Below the pieces are notes generated by a model. That model ran no database searches. It saw only the letters and a program-made list of their open reading frames with translations, and was not told the DNA's origin. Below, one piece after another: positions 2,543-20,910 of a DNA stretch of 37,612 nt. Both the position numbers and the translations under genes were made by a program. Within the stretch, counting starts at the first letter, position 1. Each line of letters begins with the position of its first letter. Location of the stretch: the NCBI GenBank assembly GCA_016208465.1, contig JACQXZ010000029.1, positions 1-37,612 on the forward strand, read 5' to 3'. This DNA is from Actinomycetota bacterium (lineage in GTDB: Bacteria; Actinomycetota; Aquicultoria; JACQXZ01).

Positions 2543-3850
2543 TCACCCTATTACTTTAAACAAAGGAGCTGCTATCTGTTTTTTTCGGGAAATCACTCCC
2601 GGTAAAAACACACTATTATCAACCAGCTCGCAATTAAATGCTTTCTCCGCCAGCTTTGTCTTGCCGACTGCCAATAACTCTGTTCCTTCCCTGATTATAT
2701 CTGTAATCATTAGAACAATTAATTCAAAATCTTTATCTTTTAATTCTTTGTTCATTTCGTCAAAAATCTCATTTTTCCTTCTAAGAATCCCTTTTGAATT
2801 TGTGGTTTCAATCTGCCCTATTCCAATTTTAACATCTGAAAAATTGTAAACTTTAAAATCAGAATTTAAAAGATCCGTGGCTGATAAAGAAGAAACATCA
2901 GAACACTCGTCATACATTCTGGCGCCAAATTCAAACCAGTCAATTCCCGCAATCTTGCTTAAGCGTTCAACTATTTCTTTATCTTTTTGCGTTGCAGTTG
3001 GTGATTTTAGCAGAACGGTATCGGAAAGAACTGCCCCTAACAATATTCCCGCAATATCTCTTGGAATATCAACCCTAAGTTCATTAAATCTTTCCGTAAT
3101 TATAGTTGAAGTTGACCCCACCGGTTTGCTGATTACTAATATTGGTTCAGGCGTCTGAAGGTCTCCTAAATGATGGTGGTCTATAATTTCAATAATAGAA
3201 GCCTCTTTTATTCCGTCTGCTGATTGGGAAATTTCACTATGATCTAAAATAATAACTCTTCTCTTTTCAGGATTAACCAAATTGGTTCTGGTAACAATTC
3301 CAACCAAACGATTACTTTTATCCACTACCAGCGCTTCTTTGTGAGGAGATTTTAAAATATCTTCAATTGTTTCGCTTAAAATCTCTTCTTCATCAACAAT
3401 AAAGATATTATTTTCCATAATCACAGATGCTTCCTGTGAAGCAACTGTTTTGAAGTCTTCAAGATTTAAATTTTTGATATAGTTATACGCGATTTCCCGC
3501 TCTGTTACTACACCTAAAGCAATATTGTGCTCATCAACAACCGGGACAGATCTGATATTATGCTCATACATCAATATACCAATATCACGCACAAGAGTAT
3601 CCGGCTTAACACTTATAACTCCCGGTGTCATTATATCTTTAATTCTAATTTTAACATGATCAATTTTTCTAGGCGCCGGAAGATTAAACATATCGAGAAC
3701 AAACTGGGTTTCCTGATTTAGATCCCCTAAGCAAACTGCCTCGTATTCAAGTTTATCCAATTTGTTTTTTAAATAAGCGTAAGCAATTGATGAACAAATT
3801 GAATCTGTGTCCGGATTTTTGTGACCCAGAATATAAGTTTTTTTAAGCAT
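2543..3850 (-). CDS. ppaC: Manganese-dependent inorganic pyrophosphatase with CBS domain pair (family II, DHH/DHHA2)
   Basis: 'ILGHKNPDTDSICSSIAYAYLKN' N-terminus, CBS pair, 'IIDHHHLGD' DHH motif, C-terminal 'LLAVGKTKLAEKAF...LPGVISRKKQIAAPL'. Confidence 0.92.
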   Translation of the reverse strand: MLKKTYILGHKNPDTDSICSSIAYAYLKNKLDKLEYEAVCLGDLNQETQFVLDMFNLPAPRKIDHVKIRIKDIMTPGVISVKPDTLVRDIGILMYEHNIRSVPVVDEHNIALGVVTEREIAYNYIKNLNLEDFKTVASQEASVIMENNIFIVDEEEILSETIEDILKSPHKEALVVDKSNRLVGIVTRTNLVNPEKRRVIILDHSEISQSADGIKEASIIEIIDHHHLGDLQTPEPILVISKPVGSTSTIITERFNELRVDIPRDIAGILLGAVLSDTVLLKSPTATQKDKEIVERLSKIAGIDWFEFGARMYDECSDVSSLSATDLLNSDFKVYNFSDVKIGIGQIETTNSKGILRRKNEIFDEMNKELKDKDFELIVLMITDIIREGTELLAVGKTKLAEKAFNCELVDNSVFLPGVISRKKQIAAPLFKVIG

Positions 3851-3901
3851 CTTAACCTCATTATTATTGACTCATCTAGATTAGATAATTCTTTCCCTAT
3901 T

Positions 3902-4324
3902 CTCTCCCCTCCCTTGATGGGAGGGGATTAAGGGGAGGGTGTGTTAAAAATAATTAGTTCTTATCGCCTCTAAAACACCCTCTGTATTAGTTAAGACTTC
4001 ATTATTCCAAAACCTTAGAACTTTGAACCCCTGAATTTTAAACCATTCATCTCTTTCATTATCTTTCTCTGTCTCTTCTGAATGTTGACCACCATCCACC
4101 TCGATAATTACTTTCTTTTCAAAACAAACAAAATCAACAATATATTTTCCGATAGGCTCCTGTCTTCTGAATTTCATCCCTTCTAATTGCTTAGCTCTTA
4201 GATGTCTCCATAACAATCTTTCTGCATCAGTCAAATTCTTTCTTAATTGCTTTGTTATGTTCTTGATTTTGACATTCACATCTTAACACCCTCACCCTAA
4301 CCCTCCCCCATCAAGGGGGAGGGA
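3902..4324 (-). mobile_element. Putative DUF559-nuclease element A (about 423 bp) with terminal inverted repeats
   Basis: End 1: CTCCCCTCCCTTGATGGGAGGGGATTAAGGGGAGGGTGTGTTAAAA (3902-3947). End 2, reverse complement: CCCTCCCCCTTGATGGGGGAGGGTTAGGGTGAGGGTGTTAAGA (4282-4324). The ends are inverted and similar, and flank a DUF559 ORF. Confidence 0.6.
3944..4279 (-). CDS. DUF559 (Vsr-like/PD-(D/E)XK) endonuclease-domain protein
   Basis: 111 aa: 'LRKNLTDAERLLWRHLRAKQLEGMKFRRQEPIGKYIVDFVCFEKKVIIEVDGGQHSEETEKDNERDEWFKIQGFKVLRFWNNEVL' is a canonical DUF559 pattern. Confidence 0.88.
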   Translation of the reverse strand: MNVKIKNITKQLRKNLTDAERLLWRHLRAKQLEGMKFRRQEPIGKYIVDFVCFEKKVIIEVDGGQHSEETEKDNERDEWFKIQGFKVLRFWNNEVLTNTEGVLEAIRTNYF

Positions 4325-4341
4325 AATATATCCAATAATTA

Positions 4342-6474
4342 TTATCCTTCAACTTTTTGAAGCGGAGCATAGTTTAAGAGCAGTTTTTTCTTACCTTCGG
4401 ATACAAACAAAACTGTTACTTCGTTTTCACTTTTTACTTCAACAATCTTACCCTTGCCCCATTTTTTATGAACAACCTCATCGCCAAGTGAAAACTCAAA
4501 AGATGCATTCTCTTCTTTTGAATCATCCTTGTCATCTGCAATGCCAGCTAAATCAACAGGATTAACTAATTCTTCAGGAATCTCCTTTAAAAACCGGGAG
4601 ACTGGATTATAATTAGTGTTTCCATAAAGATCGCGGCTCCAGCTATGAGTTAAATATAACCTTTCTCTAGCTCTGGTTATTCCAACATAACATAAACGCC
4701 GTTCCTCCTCCAGTTCGATCGGGTTGCCTAACGATCTGATATGAGGAAATACACCATCTTCCATCCCAACCATAAAAACAACCGGAAATTCCAATCCTTT
4801 TGCATTATGAAAAGTCATTAGTGTTACCGCGTCGGAAGCTTCACTATAATTATCTATATCTGCAATTAACGAAATGCCTTCCAAGAATTCATCAAGAGTT
4901 TTTTCAGGAAAAACAAGTTGAAACTCTTTTACTACAGCAATAAATTCTTTTAAGTTTTCAATTCTCCCAAGAGCTTCAATCGTTTGTTCTTTTTCATATT
5001 GAGCCAGATACTTTGTTTCTTCAAGAATTTTATTTGTTAATTCTTCAATCGAACAGCTATTTTTAACCGCAATATAATTATCAATCATATTAACAAAATT
5101 CTTAATATTCTTTTTTGCCCGATCAGAAAGCTGAAAAATTTCATCAGATCGTTTTAAAGCCTCAAAAAAAGCTATTCTGTTAAGCAGTGCAAATTTATCA
5201 ATCTGGGCAATTGTGGTATCGCCGATTTCTCGCCTTGGTTTATTTATTATTCTTTTCAAACTAACTGAATCAAGCGGATTTGAAACTACTCTCAAATAGG
5301 CAAGAATATCCTTGATTTCCTGCCGTTCATAAAACCTGACTCCTCCTACAATTTTGTAGGGCAGATCTCTTCTGATAAAAATTTCTTCAAAAACCCTCGA
5401 CTGAGCGTTAGTTCGATAAAAAACAGCAAAATCATTATATTTTCTGCCTTCGGTATCTTTTAAACGCTTAATTTCAGATTGGACAAACAAAGCTTCGTCA
5501 TGTTCATTTTCAGCCTGATAAACAGTAACCGACTCGCCTTTCGCGTTAGCTGTCCAAAGCGTTTTGGGTTTACGCCCGACGTTGTTTTTAACCACATAAT
5601 TCGCGGCTTCTAAGATCGTATTGGTTGAGCGATAATTCTGCTCGAGTTTTATAATAACAGCTTCGGGGTAGTCGCTTTCAAATTCCAAAATATTCCGAAT
5701 ATCAGCTCCGCGAAACCGATAAATACTCTGATCGTCATCGCCAACAACACACAAATTACGATACTTAGCCGAAAGAAGATTTACTAAAACATATTGAGCA
5801 TAATTAGTATCCTGATATTCATCAACTAAAATATACTTAAATCTGTTCTGGTATTTTTCCAAAACATCAGGAAAAATATTAAATATATTTACTGTCAACA
5901 TAATCATATCATCAAAATCAACAGCATTATTCTGATAAAGTTTTTCCTGATAAAGCTTGTAAACTTCAGACGCAATCTGTTCAATATAACTAACTGCTTT
6001 TAAGGCATAGGTGTCTGCGTCTATCAATTCATTTTTCGCGTTGCTTATAATTGATCTTATAGCAACCGGCGAATACTTTTTGGTGTCATAATTTAAATCG
6101 CGGAGACAATTTCTGATTAATCTTGTCTGGTCATCCTGATCGTAAATAGTGAAATTGCTTTTATAGCCTAATTTTTCAATTTCGCGGCGCAGGATTCGGC
6201 CGCAGGCTGAATGAAAGGTGCAGATCCACATATTTTCGCTTATTCTGCCAACTAAAGATTCTATTCTTTCTTTCATTTCACCGGCAGCCTTGTTGGTAAA
6301 TGTTATCGCAAGAATGTTATAAGGATTTACTCCTTGGGATTGAATAAGATAAGCAATCCGGTGGGTTAAAACTCTGGTTTTTCCTGAACCCGCGCCTGCA
6401 AGAATTAAAAGAGGACCTTCCGTTGAAGTAACGGCATCTTTTTGAACTGGATTTAAGTTTTCTAGTAATTTCAT
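4342..6474 (-). CDS. pcrA: UvrD/PcrA-type ATP-dependent DNA helicase (SF1)
   Basis: 'LNPVQKDAV', 'ILAGAGSGKTRVLTHRIAYLI', 'VDEYQDTN', 'VVGDDDQSIYRFRGADIRNIL', 'LEQNYRS', 'TMHNAKGLEFP'-like motif, 'YVGITRARERLYLTH'; C-terminal PcrA-like tail. Confidence 0.95.
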   Translation of the reverse strand: MKLLENLNPVQKDAVTSTEGPLLILAGAGSGKTRVLTHRIAYLIQSQGVNPYNILAITFTNKAAGEMKERIESLVGRISENMWICTFHSACGRILRREIEKLGYKSNFTIYDQDDQTRLIRNCLRDLNYDTKKYSPVAIRSIISNAKNELIDADTYALKAVSYIEQIASEVYKLYQEKLYQNNAVDFDDMIMLTVNIFNIFPDVLEKYQNRFKYILVDEYQDTNYAQYVLVNLLSAKYRNLCVVGDDDQSIYRFRGADIRNILEFESDYPEAVIIKLEQNYRSTNTILEAANYVVKNNVGRKPKTLWTANAKGESVTVYQAENEHDEALFVQSEIKRLKDTEGRKYNDFAVFYRTNAQSRVFEEIFIRRDLPYKIVGGVRFYERQEIKDILAYLRVVSNPLDSVSLKRIINKPRREIGDTTIAQIDKFALLNRIAFFEALKRSDEIFQLSDRAKKNIKNFVNMIDNYIAVKNSCSIEELTNKILEETKYLAQYEKEQTIEALGRIENLKEFIAVVKEFQLVFPEKTLDEFLEGISLIADIDNYSEASDAVTLMTFHNAKGLEFPVVFMVGMEDGVFPHIRSLGNPIELEEERRLCYVGITRARERLYLTHSWSRDLYGNTNYNPVSRFLKEIPEELVNPVDLAGIADDKDDSKEENASFEFSLGDEVVHKKWGKGKIVEVKSENEVTVLFVSEGKKKLLLNYAPLQKVEG

Positions 6475-6541
6475 AAAGTGTATTATAGGATTTGAAAGGC
6501 AAAAAGTAAACGGAGGATTTTAAATCGGAGTTTTTCCTTAC

Positions 6542-6859
6542 CTACAAGCAAAAAGAAATTTCTAAATCACCAATCTGCAACAACCTATGTCCTTCAAATA
6601 CGGTGAGAATTTCAACATTATTTTCATTAAGCCTGTAGACGATTCTATAATTCTTGAATATCAACTCTCTTATGTCGGGATTGGCAATTTCAGGTACGGT
6701 CCTGCCCGCCCTCGGTTTGTCAGACAACACTGCTTCTGCGCGTCCAATAAGTTGATCGATGAATTTTGCTGCCCGCTCCGGGCTGGCTTTCGAAATGTAG
6801 TCTTCAATTTCCGTCAATTGCACAAGGGCTTCATGTGTCCAGATTATCTTCTGCAACAT
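6542..6859 (-). CDS. RelE/ParE family toxin
   Basis: 105 aa: 'IIWTHEALVQLTEIEDYISKASPERAAKFIDQLIGRAEAVLSDKPRAGRTVPEIANPDIRELIFKNYRIVYRLNENNVEILTVFEGHRLL' is typical RelE/ParE. Confidence 0.92.
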   Translation of the reverse strand: MLQKIIWTHEALVQLTEIEDYISKASPERAAKFIDQLIGRAEAVLSDKPRAGRTVPEIANPDIRELIFKNYRIVYRLNENNVEILTVFEGHRLLQIGDLEISFCL

Positions 6860-7143
6860 TATTCCTTGCTTCTTCTGGCTGCTAATGCCGCTCTGATCTC
6901 CTCAGTACCGTAAGTCCTTCCGTTTTCGGCATCTGATATTCCTCTGCCAACAGAATCAAGGAAAGATTTTCTATATACCAATTCATCGTAGTCGCTTGGT
7001 GACAATAGCACTCCGGCCGGTTTGCCATTCTGCGTAATAATTAGAGGATGTCCCGTATTCTTGAGACCTTTGAACCACTTGGAGATACTTCTCTTAAACT
7101 CAGCAATTGGAACAATATCACGTGTGATTGAAATAGGTTTCAT
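6859..7143 (-). CDS. Phd/YefM family antitoxin
   Basis: 94 aa: 'DIVPIAEFKRSISKWFKGLKNTGHPLIITQNGKPAGVLLSPSDYDEL'; 1-nt overlap with the toxin ORF. Confidence 0.9.
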   Translation of the reverse strand: MKPISITRDIVPIAEFKRSISKWFKGLKNTGHPLIITQNGKPAGVLLSPSDYDELVYRKSFLDSVGRGISDAENGRTYGTEEIRAALAARRSKE

Positions 7144-7312
7144 AATAGCTCCTTATTATGACTCATATAGTAATCTTATTATAGATCAAAATAAAATCCA
7201 TATCAAGTTCTTATTTTTTTCAAATTTTCTCAAAAATGTAATGATTATAGTAATTATTTAATAAAGTAACTTGCCGCAGAAACCAGAGAGTTTAAGATTA
7301 AGACTCCTTGAT

Positions 7313-10100
7313 TTAATCATTCACGTTAAAATATATACTCTTCTCACTTCCATAATAAGATTCATATACATGCTGATATATCAAACCACATTTTTGATGG
7401 TATATCTTATCAGTGAATACCGGTGGCAATCCCTCAAGCATCTCCTCAATGCACAATTTTACAGCCGCGCGAGATTGTTGTTTCTTGCGCCAATCTAAAA
7501 CCAGTTTTCCTGATTTAAGTTTTTCGAGTAAATTATGAGCTATCTTTTTAATAGATATAATATCTTTTTGCGTCATTTTAAGCGGTGGATTAACCAATAA
7601 GTCAAATATAGCAAGCTCTTCTTCAGTTAAGTTCTCTGTAAGCGCCCGTTTTTCTTCTTCATTTAAGCCTTCAACAAATTCAAGTAATCGTCTGTAATAC
7701 TCTTCCACATTCATTGAACCGGCATTGTATTCGTCAATTAATTGCTGGAATTTTTCCATATAATCAATCCGTGTTTTATTAAGCATATATAAAGCATGTA
7801 ATCTAATCTCGGCTACTTTTCTTAACTGTTCAGCCGATATTCGTTTGCGTCCTTTGTTAAATTGTTCTTGCAATTTCTCAAGATCAATTTTGCTCAGATC
7901 AAGTATTCTTCTTGTCTTGTATGGTTCTCCTCGCCCCTCCAAAGAAATATGCCTTGCCTCAACTCTTACCGATTTATCCAGTAATTCCGAAATCTTTTTA
8001 AGCACATCAGAGACATCAATCATTGGAGAAATTGACCCCAATTTATCTGCCAAAACCTGCAATAACTTTACAACTGGCTGGAACTCGCTCGCAGATGTAT
8101 CAGGCAATATTGCCTTATAGATTTTCTGAATAATTGCATTTTTTTCTTTAAATACAGATTGTCGTTCTTCATTTTCCAATATACACTCAACTGCATCATC
8201 TATTAAACCAATGCATTCTAATCCTTCTGCAATGATTATTTCTGACAATAATGTTCCCCAATCATCTAGCAACTCCATCATTTCCTGAATATTCTGTCGT
8301 AAATGTTCTATTAATTCAGATTTTTCAATAATTGGCGTATCAACTCCGCCTTCTCCCGTGGAAGCCGCATAAATTGCCAATGCTTTATTCAGGTTATGAA
8401 GCACTCCAATATAATCAACTATCAATCCTACAACTTTGTGTTCGCCAAATACCCGGTTAACCCGGGCAATGGTCTGCATAAGAGTATGATTTTTCATTGG
8501 CTTATCGAGATAAATTGTAGAGCACGAGGGGACATCAAATCCCGTCATCCACATTGCACAGACAAAAACAATCCTTAAAGGATCATCTGGATCTTTGAAC
8601 TTTTCATCAAGAGATTCATTATTCATTCGCCTGCGATGCGGTGCAATATCCACTCCTTTTGTTTTTAAGTCTTCGACTTCATTCTGAGATTGCGATACCA
8701 CAACATACTGTCGCTTTATCATCAATTGCCTGTTTAAAATTATAAATACTTACATAATCGCCAAAGACTTCTTTGGTTTTCTCTTCGCCTACAATAAGTG
8801 GTGTTCCGGTAAATGCAATAAACCCTGCCTTTGGCAAGGCATTGCGCATATTCATAGCAAATATGTCATATTGGGTTCTGTGGGCTTCGTCAGTTATAAC
8901 GACAATATCGAAACGTTCAGAAATCACCGGGTGTACTGTCTCCTTTTCTGTTCTGAATTTTTGAATAGTTGTAAAGACATAACGATGGTCTTCTTTTAGC
9001 AATCGCCTTAAATCCTCGCTTGTTTCAGCCCATTCTTGTTTTCCTTGAATAACGCCTGAACGCACAAATCGTTTATAGGTCTGCTTGTCCAGCTCGTTTC
9101 TATCGGTTACAACTACAAATGTCCAGTTACCCGGTATTTTTCTTAAAATCTTCTGTGAAAAGAAAATCATTGATTCTGTTTTCCCTGAACCCTGAGTGTG
9201 CCAGAAAACTCCGAGTCGTCCCTTATTCTTGTTCATCTGGAGAAATGCTTTTATCGCATTTTCGACTCCTAAATACTGGTGGTTTTTAGCAATAATTTTA
9301 ATGGGACCGTTTTTCTCTTCCTTAAATAAAGTGTAGTTTTCGAGAATATCCATAAACCGGGCTTTTTCACAAACGCCTCTGATAACTGTATCAAGTGAAA
9401 CAACACCTTTTTCGCCTTCATTATTAATTCGTTTCCATTCGCTGAAATAGTCCCATTCTGCAGAGATTGTCCCAACCCGGCTTTGACTGCCATTGGAAAG
9501 GATAATCACTCCGTTAAACCAGAATACCTGTGGAATGGTTGATTTATAATCCCTTAAATTCTCATCGTATGCTTTCTTAAGATTCCGATGAGATGCCTTT
9601 AACTCCATAAAAAGAAGCGGGATACCATTAATAAATCCAAGAAGGTCAATCCTTCGGGTATACATTTCCCCTGAAACCCAGAATTGTGAAGCTAAAAAGA
9701 AATCATTGTTTTCTATATTTACCCAGTCAATAACTTTTATTCGTTCTGAAACCTGTTCGTTTTTATTATTTAGGTAAGAGACAAGCGCTCCATTTTTAAG
9801 AAGGTCAAATACTTCACGGTTTGCCGAAACCATTCCCATCAAACTTCTATCAGCAGTTAGTATCTTTATTGCTTCATCAAGGACAGTTTCAGAGATGTCT
9901 GGGTTGATTTTTTTCAGTGAAGGTTTAAGTTTTGAAACCAAAACAACATCTGCTTTTGTCTCCCTGCCAAGAGAACTTTTTCCATTTTCATCAAACTCAT
10001 AAAAACAGTTCTGGACAGACCAATCAAGTTGACTGAATAATTCAATTGCCGGTTTTTCCACTAACGCAGATTCTGAATAGTCGCTATTTTTGGGCGTCAT
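7313..10100 (-). pseudogene. hsdR: Type I restriction enzyme R subunit (HsdR), disrupted by internal deletion and frameshift
   Basis: N-part ORF 8679-10100 has nuclease and RecA1 motifs ('FMELKA', 'VFWHTQGSGKTESMIFF', 'TDEAHRTQYDIFAMNMRNALPKAGFIAFTGTPL') and ends '...FKQAIDDKATV'. C-part ORF 7313-8725 resumes in another frame at '...VVVSQSQNEVEDLKTKGVDIAPHRRRM...CAMWMTGFDVPS...LMQTIARVNRVFGEHK'. The intervening RecA2 start expected in HsdR is absent. Confidence 0.85.
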
Positions 10101-10687
10101 ACTTCCTGCTCCCTTATAGCAATCTCTAAATCGGACACATCAAGTTCACCTGAGATGAGTTTGGGAAGTAAAAGGTCTCGGGTTCTGCGGAGGTTATCGT
10201 TCTTTTTTCTCAATAAACTCATTTGATTCAATAATAATCCTACCAATTGATTGAAATGCTTTAAAGTCTGGCTTGTAGGAATAATGACTTTTTGCTCTTT
10301 TAGAAACTTAAAATGCCGCGCATATGCAAAATCCGACAGATCGATATTTTTAATAGCATAGTAAAAATAGGCGGGCATTAAATCCTCATTACTTGGATAT
10401 AATAATTGTGTTCCATCAGCCCCGCTTGCAAATGGAAAATCAACATATTTGATAATTCGAGTATGGTCCCCAAAAACGATAATTGGTAATGGATCTGAAT
10501 GTAAAGCATCAGATTCATTTGTATAACCACCTATAAATGTTGAGCTTTGATCAATAGATGGTATTGAACCTTGCTCAAGATAGTCCTCTTTCTTAATTTT
10601 TAGCTTTCGCTTTATCTTGCACAGGAGTTCTCCAACTTTTTTAACTTCCCATCCCTCGGGAATCTTGCCCAATTCTGAATTTATCAT
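10097..10687 (-). CDS. hsdS: Type I restriction specificity subunit HsdS, C-terminal half (TRD2)
   Basis: 'NSELGKIPEGWEVKKVGELL' is the usual TRD2 start in HsdS; C-terminal coiled coil and 'RRTRDLLLPKLISGELDVSDLEI'. Confidence 0.85.
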   Translation of the reverse strand: MINSELGKIPEGWEVKKVGELLCKIKRKLKIKKEDYLEQGSIPSIDQSSTFIGGYTNESDALHSDPLPIIVFGDHTRIIKYVDFPFASGADGTQLLYPSNEDLMPAYFYYAIKNIDLSDFAYARHFKFLKEQKVIIPTSQTLKHFNQLVGLLLNQMSLLRKKNDNLRRTRDLLLPKLISGELDVSDLEIAIREQEV

Positions 10688-10703
10688 CTTTCCGCCAGAA
10701 GAC

Positions 10704-11645
10704 TTATATCCCCTCCCTGATAAGGGAGGGGATAGGGTGGGTTCTCTTTTTACTCTTAACCCTCTCTGCTAAATCCAAATAAACACCTTCTGTGTTAGAT
10801 AAAACTTCACTATTTTGATAACGAATAATTTCTATACCATATTTCTTTTGCAAGATATCTGCACGCAATTCATCATATTTTTCCTGAAAGGCATGTGTGT
10901 CACCGTCAATTTCTATTCCAAGCAATAGCTCAGAACAATAAAAATCGACAATAAAATTTTCTAATGGTTTCTGACGGGTAAATTTTAATCCACCGAACTG
11001 TTTCCTTGAAAAAATTTCCCACATCTTTTTTTCTGCAACAGTTGGATTCTTGCGATTTTGACGGGCATATTCTTTCAATTTTGTGTTATAGGGAATATAT
11101 TTAACCCCCTCTAACTCCCCCTTATCAGGGGGAGAAACTGGAAATTCAAAATTGACAAACCACTCCTGATAAATTCTCTGTGCCATTTCTTCAAGGACTT
11201 TAATCCGACGGGTATTGTTTTCAATGAGGTCGTCGTAAGCGGAGAGGATGGAAGAAACTCTGCGCTGATCTGGTAAATCATGAATATTGACATCCAAATT
11301 GTCCAAATGATTACGGTTTAAAGTAGGCACTCCTGCACCAGCGTTGTAATTCGCTAACGGCAAAGTCCTGAGCAAATAATAAACATACCGAGGAAGATTG
11401 TCTTTGAAATCTTTAACCCACAATGATGTATTATGCGGCCAATATTTTCGAGTAATATATTGAACTGTTCCTAATGATCCACTGCGACCTGTGACTACAC
11501 CGGGAGGATTTTGTTTATACTCGTTGTGAAACCCGATGATAGACGTAGAACCCACAACAGGAAACTCACCCTCGACCATTTCTGATTTGGGTAAATCGTA
11601 TCCTCTTTGAAGAGTTACAAATTCTTTAAACTTAATTCGATTCAT
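10704..11645 (-). CDS. HsdS N-terminal half (TRD1 plus central coil) fused in frame to a DUF559 endonuclease domain
   Basis: N-terminal HsdS: '[35 protein letters not shown]...[47 protein letters not shown]'; then '[11 protein letters not shown]' (translated repeat) and '[54 protein letters not shown]...[13 protein letters not shown]' (DUF559). Confidence 0.88.
10710..11134 (-). mobile_element. Putative DUF559-nuclease element B (about 425 bp) inserted in hsdS, with terminal inverted repeats
   Basis: Ends: CCCCTCCCTGATAAGGGAGGGGATAGGGTGGGTT (10710-10742) and, reverse complement, TCCCCCTGATAAGGGGGAGTTAGAGGGGGTT (~11101-11134); same architecture and nearly the same length as element A. Confidence 0.65.
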
Positions 11646-15620: not shown

Positions 15621-15660
15621 TTACCCCTCACCCTTCCCTCTCCCGCAAGGGGAGAGGGTT
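15621..15660. repeat. Solo palindromic repeat related to the DUF559-element ends
   Basis: TTACCCCTCACCCTTCCCTCTCCCGCAAGGGGAGAGGG; palindrome CCCTCTCCCGCAAGGGGAGAGGG plus flank, matching the layout of the element A end. Confidence 0.6.
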
Positions 15661-20842: not shown

Positions 20843-20910
20843 TTCCCCCTTTTGCAAGGAGCAGCGCTCTTTACTCCCCTCCTTTGCAAGGAGGGGCAGG
20901 GGAGGTTCTT
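20843..20910. repeat. Solo palindromic repeat related to the DUF559-element ends, between divergent promoters
   Basis: CCCCTCCTTTGCAAGGAGGGGCAGGGGAGGTT, preceded by a partial unit CCCCCTTTTGCAAGGAG. Confidence 0.55.

Follow-up and report, generated by a model that had tools for sequence, protein, structure and literature searches.

DUF559 nuclease genes between inverted triplex motifs of the boxC/PIT type: a candidate minimal selfish element in bacteria

The boxC/PIT triplex repeats of Escherichia coli have been known for decades. Motifs of the TMECO type were recorded in more than 260 prokaryotes, and their published consensus is CCCTCNCCC-N3-6-GGGNGAGGG-N3-GGGNGAGGG (Holder et al. 2015, PMC4666352). 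Isolated E. coli oligonucleotides form a triplex in vitro, and a stable triplex was not detected by footprinting in cells (PMC4666352). In the same survey the origin of the motif was considered unclear and mobility genes were never found nearby; no word in its text begins with "nuclease" or "DUF". The earlier boxC/PIT literature includes Hoyne et al. 2000, as cited in PMC4666352.

As regards the DUF559 proteins, YcjD was placed in PD-(D/E)XK earlier (PMC1189080), and VsrA of Caulobacter, another member, is read as a mismatch-repair enzyme which acts with a cytosine methyltransferase (PMC12907096). Among the open-access papers of PubMed Central, no relevant one was found that links DUF559 to a palindrome, an inverted repeat or mobility, and a description in a subscription journal is possible.

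The window, that is, the whole stretch of 37,612 nucleotides analysed here, is contig 56 of an Actinomycetota genome of 1.75 Mb in 105 contigs. It contains two copies (A and B) of a unit in which a DUF559 sequence is placed between two inverted motifs of the above type, as well as solo motifs with no nuclease (table 1).

A DUF559 unit bounded by triplex motifs

In the preliminary description of this DNA, copy A was a 111-aa DUF559 ORF between inverted, palindrome-bearing ends at 3902-4324. The ORF, its near-full-length Pfam match (DUF559, PF04480, 6.9e-45), the pairing of the 37-nt ends (81%, 3906-3942 with 4286-4322) and a DNA hairpin of 9 bp at each end (z -3.3 at the right and -3.2 at the left vs shuffles) all agree with this, and only the bounds had to be narrowed, the repeat ends spanning 3905-4323. 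The covariance-model scores of the right and left ends are 56.5 and 59.9 bits, respectively, for sequences that were among the training set of the model. PADLOC returned nothing for copy A beyond a weak, partial match to DpdF, and Rfam gave zero matches over 3800-11300 at E 0.1. No intein domain is included in the Pfam matches of the ORFs of copies A and B, from a general and not intein-specific search.

The second unit, for which nearly the same length had been claimed at 10710-11134, is present with both hairpins, but its DUF559 sequence is fused to hsdS and is not a stand-alone ORF. Copy B has the same plan as copy A but other stem and loop sequence, and it splits hsdS between its two target-recognition domains. 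The hsdR gene is found in two overlapping frames, at 7313-8725 of the window (N-terminal, HSDR_N/SNF2) and 8679-10100 (C-terminal), and the type I system therefore seems decayed beyond the interruption of hsdS. Between uvrD and hsdR (6542-7143), a pair of ParE-like toxin and Phd-YefM-like antitoxin genes is located.

Table 1. Location of the DUF559 sequences, triplex motifs and interrupted hsdS halves in the window
Feature	Position	Strand	Remarks
Triplex motif, right end, copy A	3905..3941	+	S TCCCCTCCC, loop TTGAT, S' GGGAGGGGA, linker TTA, T AGGGGAGGG
Compact DUF559 nuclease ORF, copy A	3944..4279	-	PD-(D/E)XK, Vsr-like; 111 aa; GTG start
Triplex motif, left end, copy A	4287..4323	-	CCCTCCCCC TTGAT GGGGGAGGG TTA GGGTGAGGG
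Interrupted hsdS, second half (TRD2)	10097..10687	-	Specificity-profile match resumes at 204-205
Interrupted hsdS, first half (TRD1) + DUF559	10704..11645	-	Stop codon within right end of copy B; specificity-profile match up to position 197-198
Copy B unit	10709-11134		DUF559 domain flanked by 12-bp and 8-bp hairpins
Triplex motif, right end, copy B	10709..10739	+	CCCCTCCC(T) GATA (A)GGGAGGGG ATA GGGTG; model E 0.0027; hairpin z -5.1
DUF559 domain, copy B	10764..11081	-	In-frame fusion to N-terminal half of HsdS
Triplex motif, left end, copy B	11105..11134	-	CTCCCCCT GATA AGGGGGAG TTA GAGGGGG; model E 0.023; hairpin z -2.5
Solo triplex motif, no nuclease	15623..15658	-	Model E 6e-7; sequence read directly
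Solo triplex motif	20876..20906	+	CCCCTCCTT-TGC-AAGGAGGGG-CA-GGGGAGGT; model E 0.08 (weak); direct reading shows S, S' and mirror T

Each triplex motif (TM) is composed of a pyrimidine segment S, a loop, a purine segment S', a linker of 2-3 nt and a purine segment T, which faces the gene in most loci. S and S' covary, with 99.2% of cells paired and changes on both sides in six of the nine pairs (0/500 shuffles). T mirrors S' as purine-motif, reverse-Hoogsteen pairing requires: G is placed over G, and either A or T over A. Over 121 ends, the position facing an A of S' is A/T in 121 cases and G in 52, and that facing a G of S' is G in 763 and A/T in 69. The mirror register has an odds ratio (OR) of 25.7 (p=4e-64, 121 ends) and a z of 14 in the shuffle test, vs 5.6 for the direct one. 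For instance, at the right end of copy A, T is the exact mirror of S' (GGGAGGGGA / AGGGGAGGG), and a mirror is also seen at the right end of another copy of the same genome, L005 (AAGGAGGGG / GGGGTGGTT). T as a plain direct repeat of S', that is, as an alternative Watson-Crick partner of S, was rejected, with direct or shifted registers at OR of only 0.4-2.3.

Pyrimidine tract, complementary purine tract, mirror purine third strand and A/T over A, which define the class II intrastrand triplex motif, are all found in the ends. Judged from their sequence, the ends of the DUF559 unit are boxC/PIT/TMECO motifs, with a predicted class II intrastrand triplex, and the third-strand covariation would make them one of the few cases of selection visibly maintaining a DNA triplex. 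Within a unit, the two ends are more alike than ends taken from different units (z=12; rank 3 of 720 in the source genome). Left and right linker types were also compared with the type A + B pairs of E. coli, and no clear pattern emerged among the DUF559 units.

All seven DUF559 places of the source genome are bounded by such ends, one of them being a 46-codon remnant. The sample of relatives comprises 80 loci from many phyla with 51-77% identity to the window protein; these loci are not independent and were picked by similarity to that protein, so the generality claimed here is that of the compact DUF559 subfamily. A pyrimidine-rich GC hairpin is located at most 200 bp away on both sides in 66 of 77 relatives, vs none in the controls (0/68 at 600 bp, 0/63 at 1200 bp and 0/54 at 1700 bp). 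Among large proteins merely containing a DUF559 domain, paired hairpin ends were found in one of 19. The length of the unit has a median of 423 bp (IQR 415-435, 53 loci). TM-DUF559-TM is almost certainly a real conserved unit, with a patchy distribution of the compact DUF559 in 7/36 genomes of the class. In one locus (L012), the left end, upstream of the ORF, is expanded to a tandem array of three ~51-bp units.

The nuclease and the solo motifs

The residues E20, D49, E60, D62 and H66 are invariant across 25 compact proteins, and dN/dS between near relatives ranges from 0.03 to 0.2. Substitution patterns of this kind indicate that the compact DUF559 nuclease is under purifying selection. The AlphaFold model of the window protein (pLDDT 87) was matched by Foldseek to NGO0050 (3hrl), to the homing endonuclease I-Bth0305I (3r3p, 3.9e-5) and more weakly to Vsr (1vsr); the profile search also recovers 3hrl and 3r3p. 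Profile, fold and conserved acidic and His residues all place the protein in DUF559 and among the Vsr-like PD-(D/E)XK enzymes. The Vsr-like nuclease of the preliminary description is therefore retained, its nearest characterised fold being that of I-Bth0305I and the next that of Vsr. PDB matches to toxin B chains (E 0.19 and above) were discarded as chance.

Known motifs are also found next to DUF559 genes. In E. coli, TMECO no. 9 (1351204-1351239) is positioned 168 bp downstream of ycjD, the DUF559 gene of this species, and half a motif is found at the end of ycjD itself. Similarly, a degenerate motif is located upstream of a gonococcal DUF559 gene.

The source genome and 60 relatives were searched with a covariance model of the motif. 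In the genomes with a compact DUF559, the counts are 24 (source genome), 6, 7, 43, 22, 6, 16 and 12; they include two motifs per intact element, and solos still outnumber element-borne motifs in most of these genomes. At least six motifs are found in 8/8 genomes with the compact DUF559, vs at least four in 8/53 of the others (p=4e-6, uncorrected for phylogeny), and within the class only the association is 7/7 vs 6/29 (p=2e-4, likewise uncorrected). The solo motifs of the source genome are intergenic or at gene edges and have the exact motif length. As evidence against a partnership with DUF559, genomes G033 and G037 have 87 and 81 motifs, respectively, and the compact DUF559 is absent from both; another partner gene may exist for these motifs. 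Several motifs of G033 (L151-L155) and G037 (L156-L158) are found at the ends of contigs or as tandem arrays of hairpins, and in L157 of G037 a gene pair looking like an antitoxin and a PIN toxin is placed between two direct motifs. From co-conservation, fold and selection, recognition and cutting of the motif can be inferred, and the nuclease is probably cognate to it.

Proposed spread of the unit and rival explanations

Apart from hsdS, units are inserted in frame in several other genes, the names of which were read off the protein sequences and not obtained by profile search. In hrpA, one site is occupied in five Gallionellaceae genomes and another site in a sixth; further cases are priA (three Gastranaerophilales), mfd and an AstE-like gene. 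The motif is nearly free of stop codons, which explains how inserted units are tolerated in frame. The hrpA of L075 is uninterrupted where that of L077 is filled. Extra in-frame inserts from nuclease-less motif pairs, with PSPGGRG-type stretches, occur in the hrpA of the Gallionellaceae loci L072, L077 and L082.

Presence and absence were compared between relatives. A unit is found in genomes G003 and G020, and a solo motif at the matching site of G015. The rnr-smpB locus has four states, namely full, decayed, solo motif and none. At yjdP-phnP of E. coli, three alleles occur side by side: two motifs in inverted orientation, a single motif left by collapse, and an empty site. Solo motifs may therefore arise by loss as well as serve as targets, and solo-TM alleles at the sites of elements can equally be losses. 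A clean insertion of a bare element at strain resolution, into a site with or without a TM, was found in none of the loci compared.

Three candidates for empty sites were rejected. About 2000 E. coli genomes without ycjD carry the eef efflux operon at its place (PMC12817139), the Klebsiella cysP-yfeX site (DUF559 remnant vs none) has a decayed left end, and the "gap" of Azospirillum is really an IS inserted in a TM. This IS, in p1 of Azospirillum argentinense (L131, ~1360-2533), has an IS110/IS1111-like transposase and lies in the triplex motif adjoining the DUF559 gene.

Target duplication at the bare ends is not above that of shuffled pairs (1.95 vs 1.66, 23/300), and copies A and B have the inverted ends of a DDE insertion sequence or MITE without its target-site duplication. 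A single bare unit (L071) is located between 16-bp direct repeats (ATTATAGGTTTTCGAA), possibly a long duplication of the target or a piece of some larger repeat. Of the compact selfish element and its predicted signs, the preliminary description was right about conserved end boundaries at other DUF559 ORFs, constant length, several copies and presence/absence alleles between relatives; the action of the nuclease at the ends, also proposed there, is a hypothesis, as is movement of the unit through it.

Some units are nested in longer inverted repeats (GGTTCTTTCTCA..TGAGAAAGAACC). The carriers of L004 and L005, both in the source genome, are flanked by exact 8-bp duplications (AAAGAAAA and ATAAATTT), and those of L007 and G015 by duplications matching at 6/8 positions. 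The carrier of G015 holds a TM pair with DUF559 deleted, and G003 and G020 have clean empty sites. GGNTCTT ends with an 8-bp AT-rich duplication were seen only in L004, L005, L007 and G015:C120. By the rule of this family, we take such carriers to be ISL3-type MITEs, and an ISL3 transposase is encoded in the source genome. The ISL3-like carriers provide an additional way of dispersal and, at the same time, the chief competing explanation.

On balance we incline, if slightly, to the view that TM-DUF559-TM is a minimal selfish element of ~420 bp, with one nuclease, two inverted TMs and a homing-like spread. The nuclease would recognise a TM once it has been extruded, whether into a hairpin or a triplex (single-stranded DNA at the replication fork is one possible setting), and would nick or cut the folded motif. 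Repair of the break from a copy of the element would then spread the unit into TM-bearing sites in a homing-like manner, recombination between the TM arms would remove the gene and leave solo TMs in the host genomes, and some copies would additionally be dispersed as cargo of ISL3-like MITEs. Against this view count the missing target duplication at bare ends, the motif-rich genomes G033 and G037, the footprinting in cells that gave no stable triplex (PMC4666352) and the mismatch-repair role assigned to Caulobacter VsrA (PMC12907096). For the inferred homing-like spread by itself, the chances appear evenly balanced.

Were the unit not self-moving at all, it would be a passenger of other transposons, notably of ISL3-like MITEs, and would outlast the decay of its carriers. 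The nested copies with exact 8-bp duplications, the MITE-borne TM pair of G015 with its empty sites in G003 and G020, and the ISL3 transposase of the genome speak for such transport. Nevertheless, outer repeats are missing from copies A and B and from most of the 80 relatives, the TM pair, the unit length and the nuclease are conserved without the MITE, and matched, co-varying triplex ends are needless for a pure passenger, which is thus unlikely. Quite unlikely, too, is that DUF559 replaces the HUH enzyme in a hairpin transposition of single strands, as in IS200/IS605 or REP/RAYT, with both end hairpins cut and joined to excise and insert the element. Such a mode would fit the subterminal hairpins at both ends, the bare ends without target duplication, and the REP- and BIME-like occurrence of solo motifs and of inverted pairs, but the unit has no HUH/Y1 transposase, and a PD-(D/E)XK enzyme implies hydrolytic cutting with no covalent DNA intermediate. 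Moreover, the ends are mutually inverted, unlike the asymmetric ends of IS200, and a fixed tetranucleotide beside the hairpin was not seen.

The near-constant unit length and the matched ends across phyla, the several copies per genome at unrelated sites, among them within hsdS, hrpA, priA and mfd, and the patchy distribution (7/36 genomes of the class) all make it improbable that the Vsr-like DUF559 is a repair or genome-maintenance gene kept by the cell. TMs would in that case accumulate beside the gene via breaks which the protein makes or tolerates, or as recombination hot spots; the fixation of ycjD in several E. coli phylogroups (PMC12817139), its presence with both flanks in 3334/5426 genomes and the joint action of Caulobacter VsrA with a cytosine methyltransferase (PMC12907096) favour a host gene. 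That the TMs merely terminate transcription, or act in some other way at the RNA level, on either side of a small gene is most improbable: G+C-rich hairpins do flank the ORF on both sides, but they have no following T-run, the mirror covariation of the third strand has no RNA role, and solo copies are scattered without a gene. PIT elements, too, are without terminator activity according to work cited in PMC4666352.

Comparison with described systems

A selfish unit of this kind supplies the boxC/PIT repeats, which have long been orphans in E. coli and other bacteria, with a candidate gene as partner; it also offers a mechanism open to testing, and its distribution is wide. As a mobile element it would get by with a single gene of ~110 residues, and it accounts for the "PSPxGRGxGEG"-type stretches inserted in essential proteins, HrpA, PriA and Mfd among them. 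More tentatively, and with somewhat less than even confidence, boxC/PIT repeats throughout bacteria could owe their mobilisation to DUF559/COG2852 nucleases as coding partners. Such elements, with ends recognised as DNA triplexes, would form a new class of selfish DNA and would have given rise to the orphan motifs that number tens to hundreds per genome.

By analogy, the DUF559 unit works like the REP/nuclease partnership or like a free-standing homing gene. As far as the searches reach, it belongs to neither class: there is no HUH enzyme, no intron or intein was found with Rfam or in the general Pfam search, and the bare ends show no target duplication. The homing endonuclease I-Bth0305I and the other EDxHD (Vsr-like) enzymes have the closest characterised fold, and homing-like spread is the mechanism favoured here; in contrast to them, the DUF559 unit has a stand-alone catalytic domain with repeats at both ends, and those searches gave no intron or intein. 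In REP/RAYT systems, with their BIMEs and REPINs, short palindromes are likewise dispersed, also as inverted pairs, and the likely partner is one small nuclease gene. The unit differs from them in its PD-(D/E)XK enzyme, which replaces HUH/Y1, and in its triplex-forming pyrimidine/purine repeats; DUF559 is its only gene, with neither an HUH/Y1 transposase nor the TnpA of IS200/IS605.

Rickettsia palindromic elements are selfish palindromes that have entered protein genes in frame, as some DUF559 units have; they differ from these units in sequence and are not known to encode a nuclease. As for the ISL3-family MITEs, some DUF559 copies are nested in one, with GGNTCTT ends and 8-bp duplications, whereas copies A and B and most relatives are without such ends.

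The stand-alone DUF559 proteins, that is, YcjD of E. coli, NGO0050 (3hrl) of Neisseria gonorrhoeae and VsrA of Caulobacter, belong to the same family, and triplex motifs are found near ycjD and near a gonococcal DUF559 gene. They have been treated as ordinary or repair genes, and a repeat-bounded unit is not described in the literature searched. The boxC/PIT/TMECO repeats share with the ends of the unit the purine-motif Y-R-R organisation, the lengths, the loops and the TTA or CNG linker, and both occur as scattered solos and inverted pairs. The difference is that those repeats were described as orphan and intergenic, whereas here a nuclease gene is placed between two motifs, also within coding genes.
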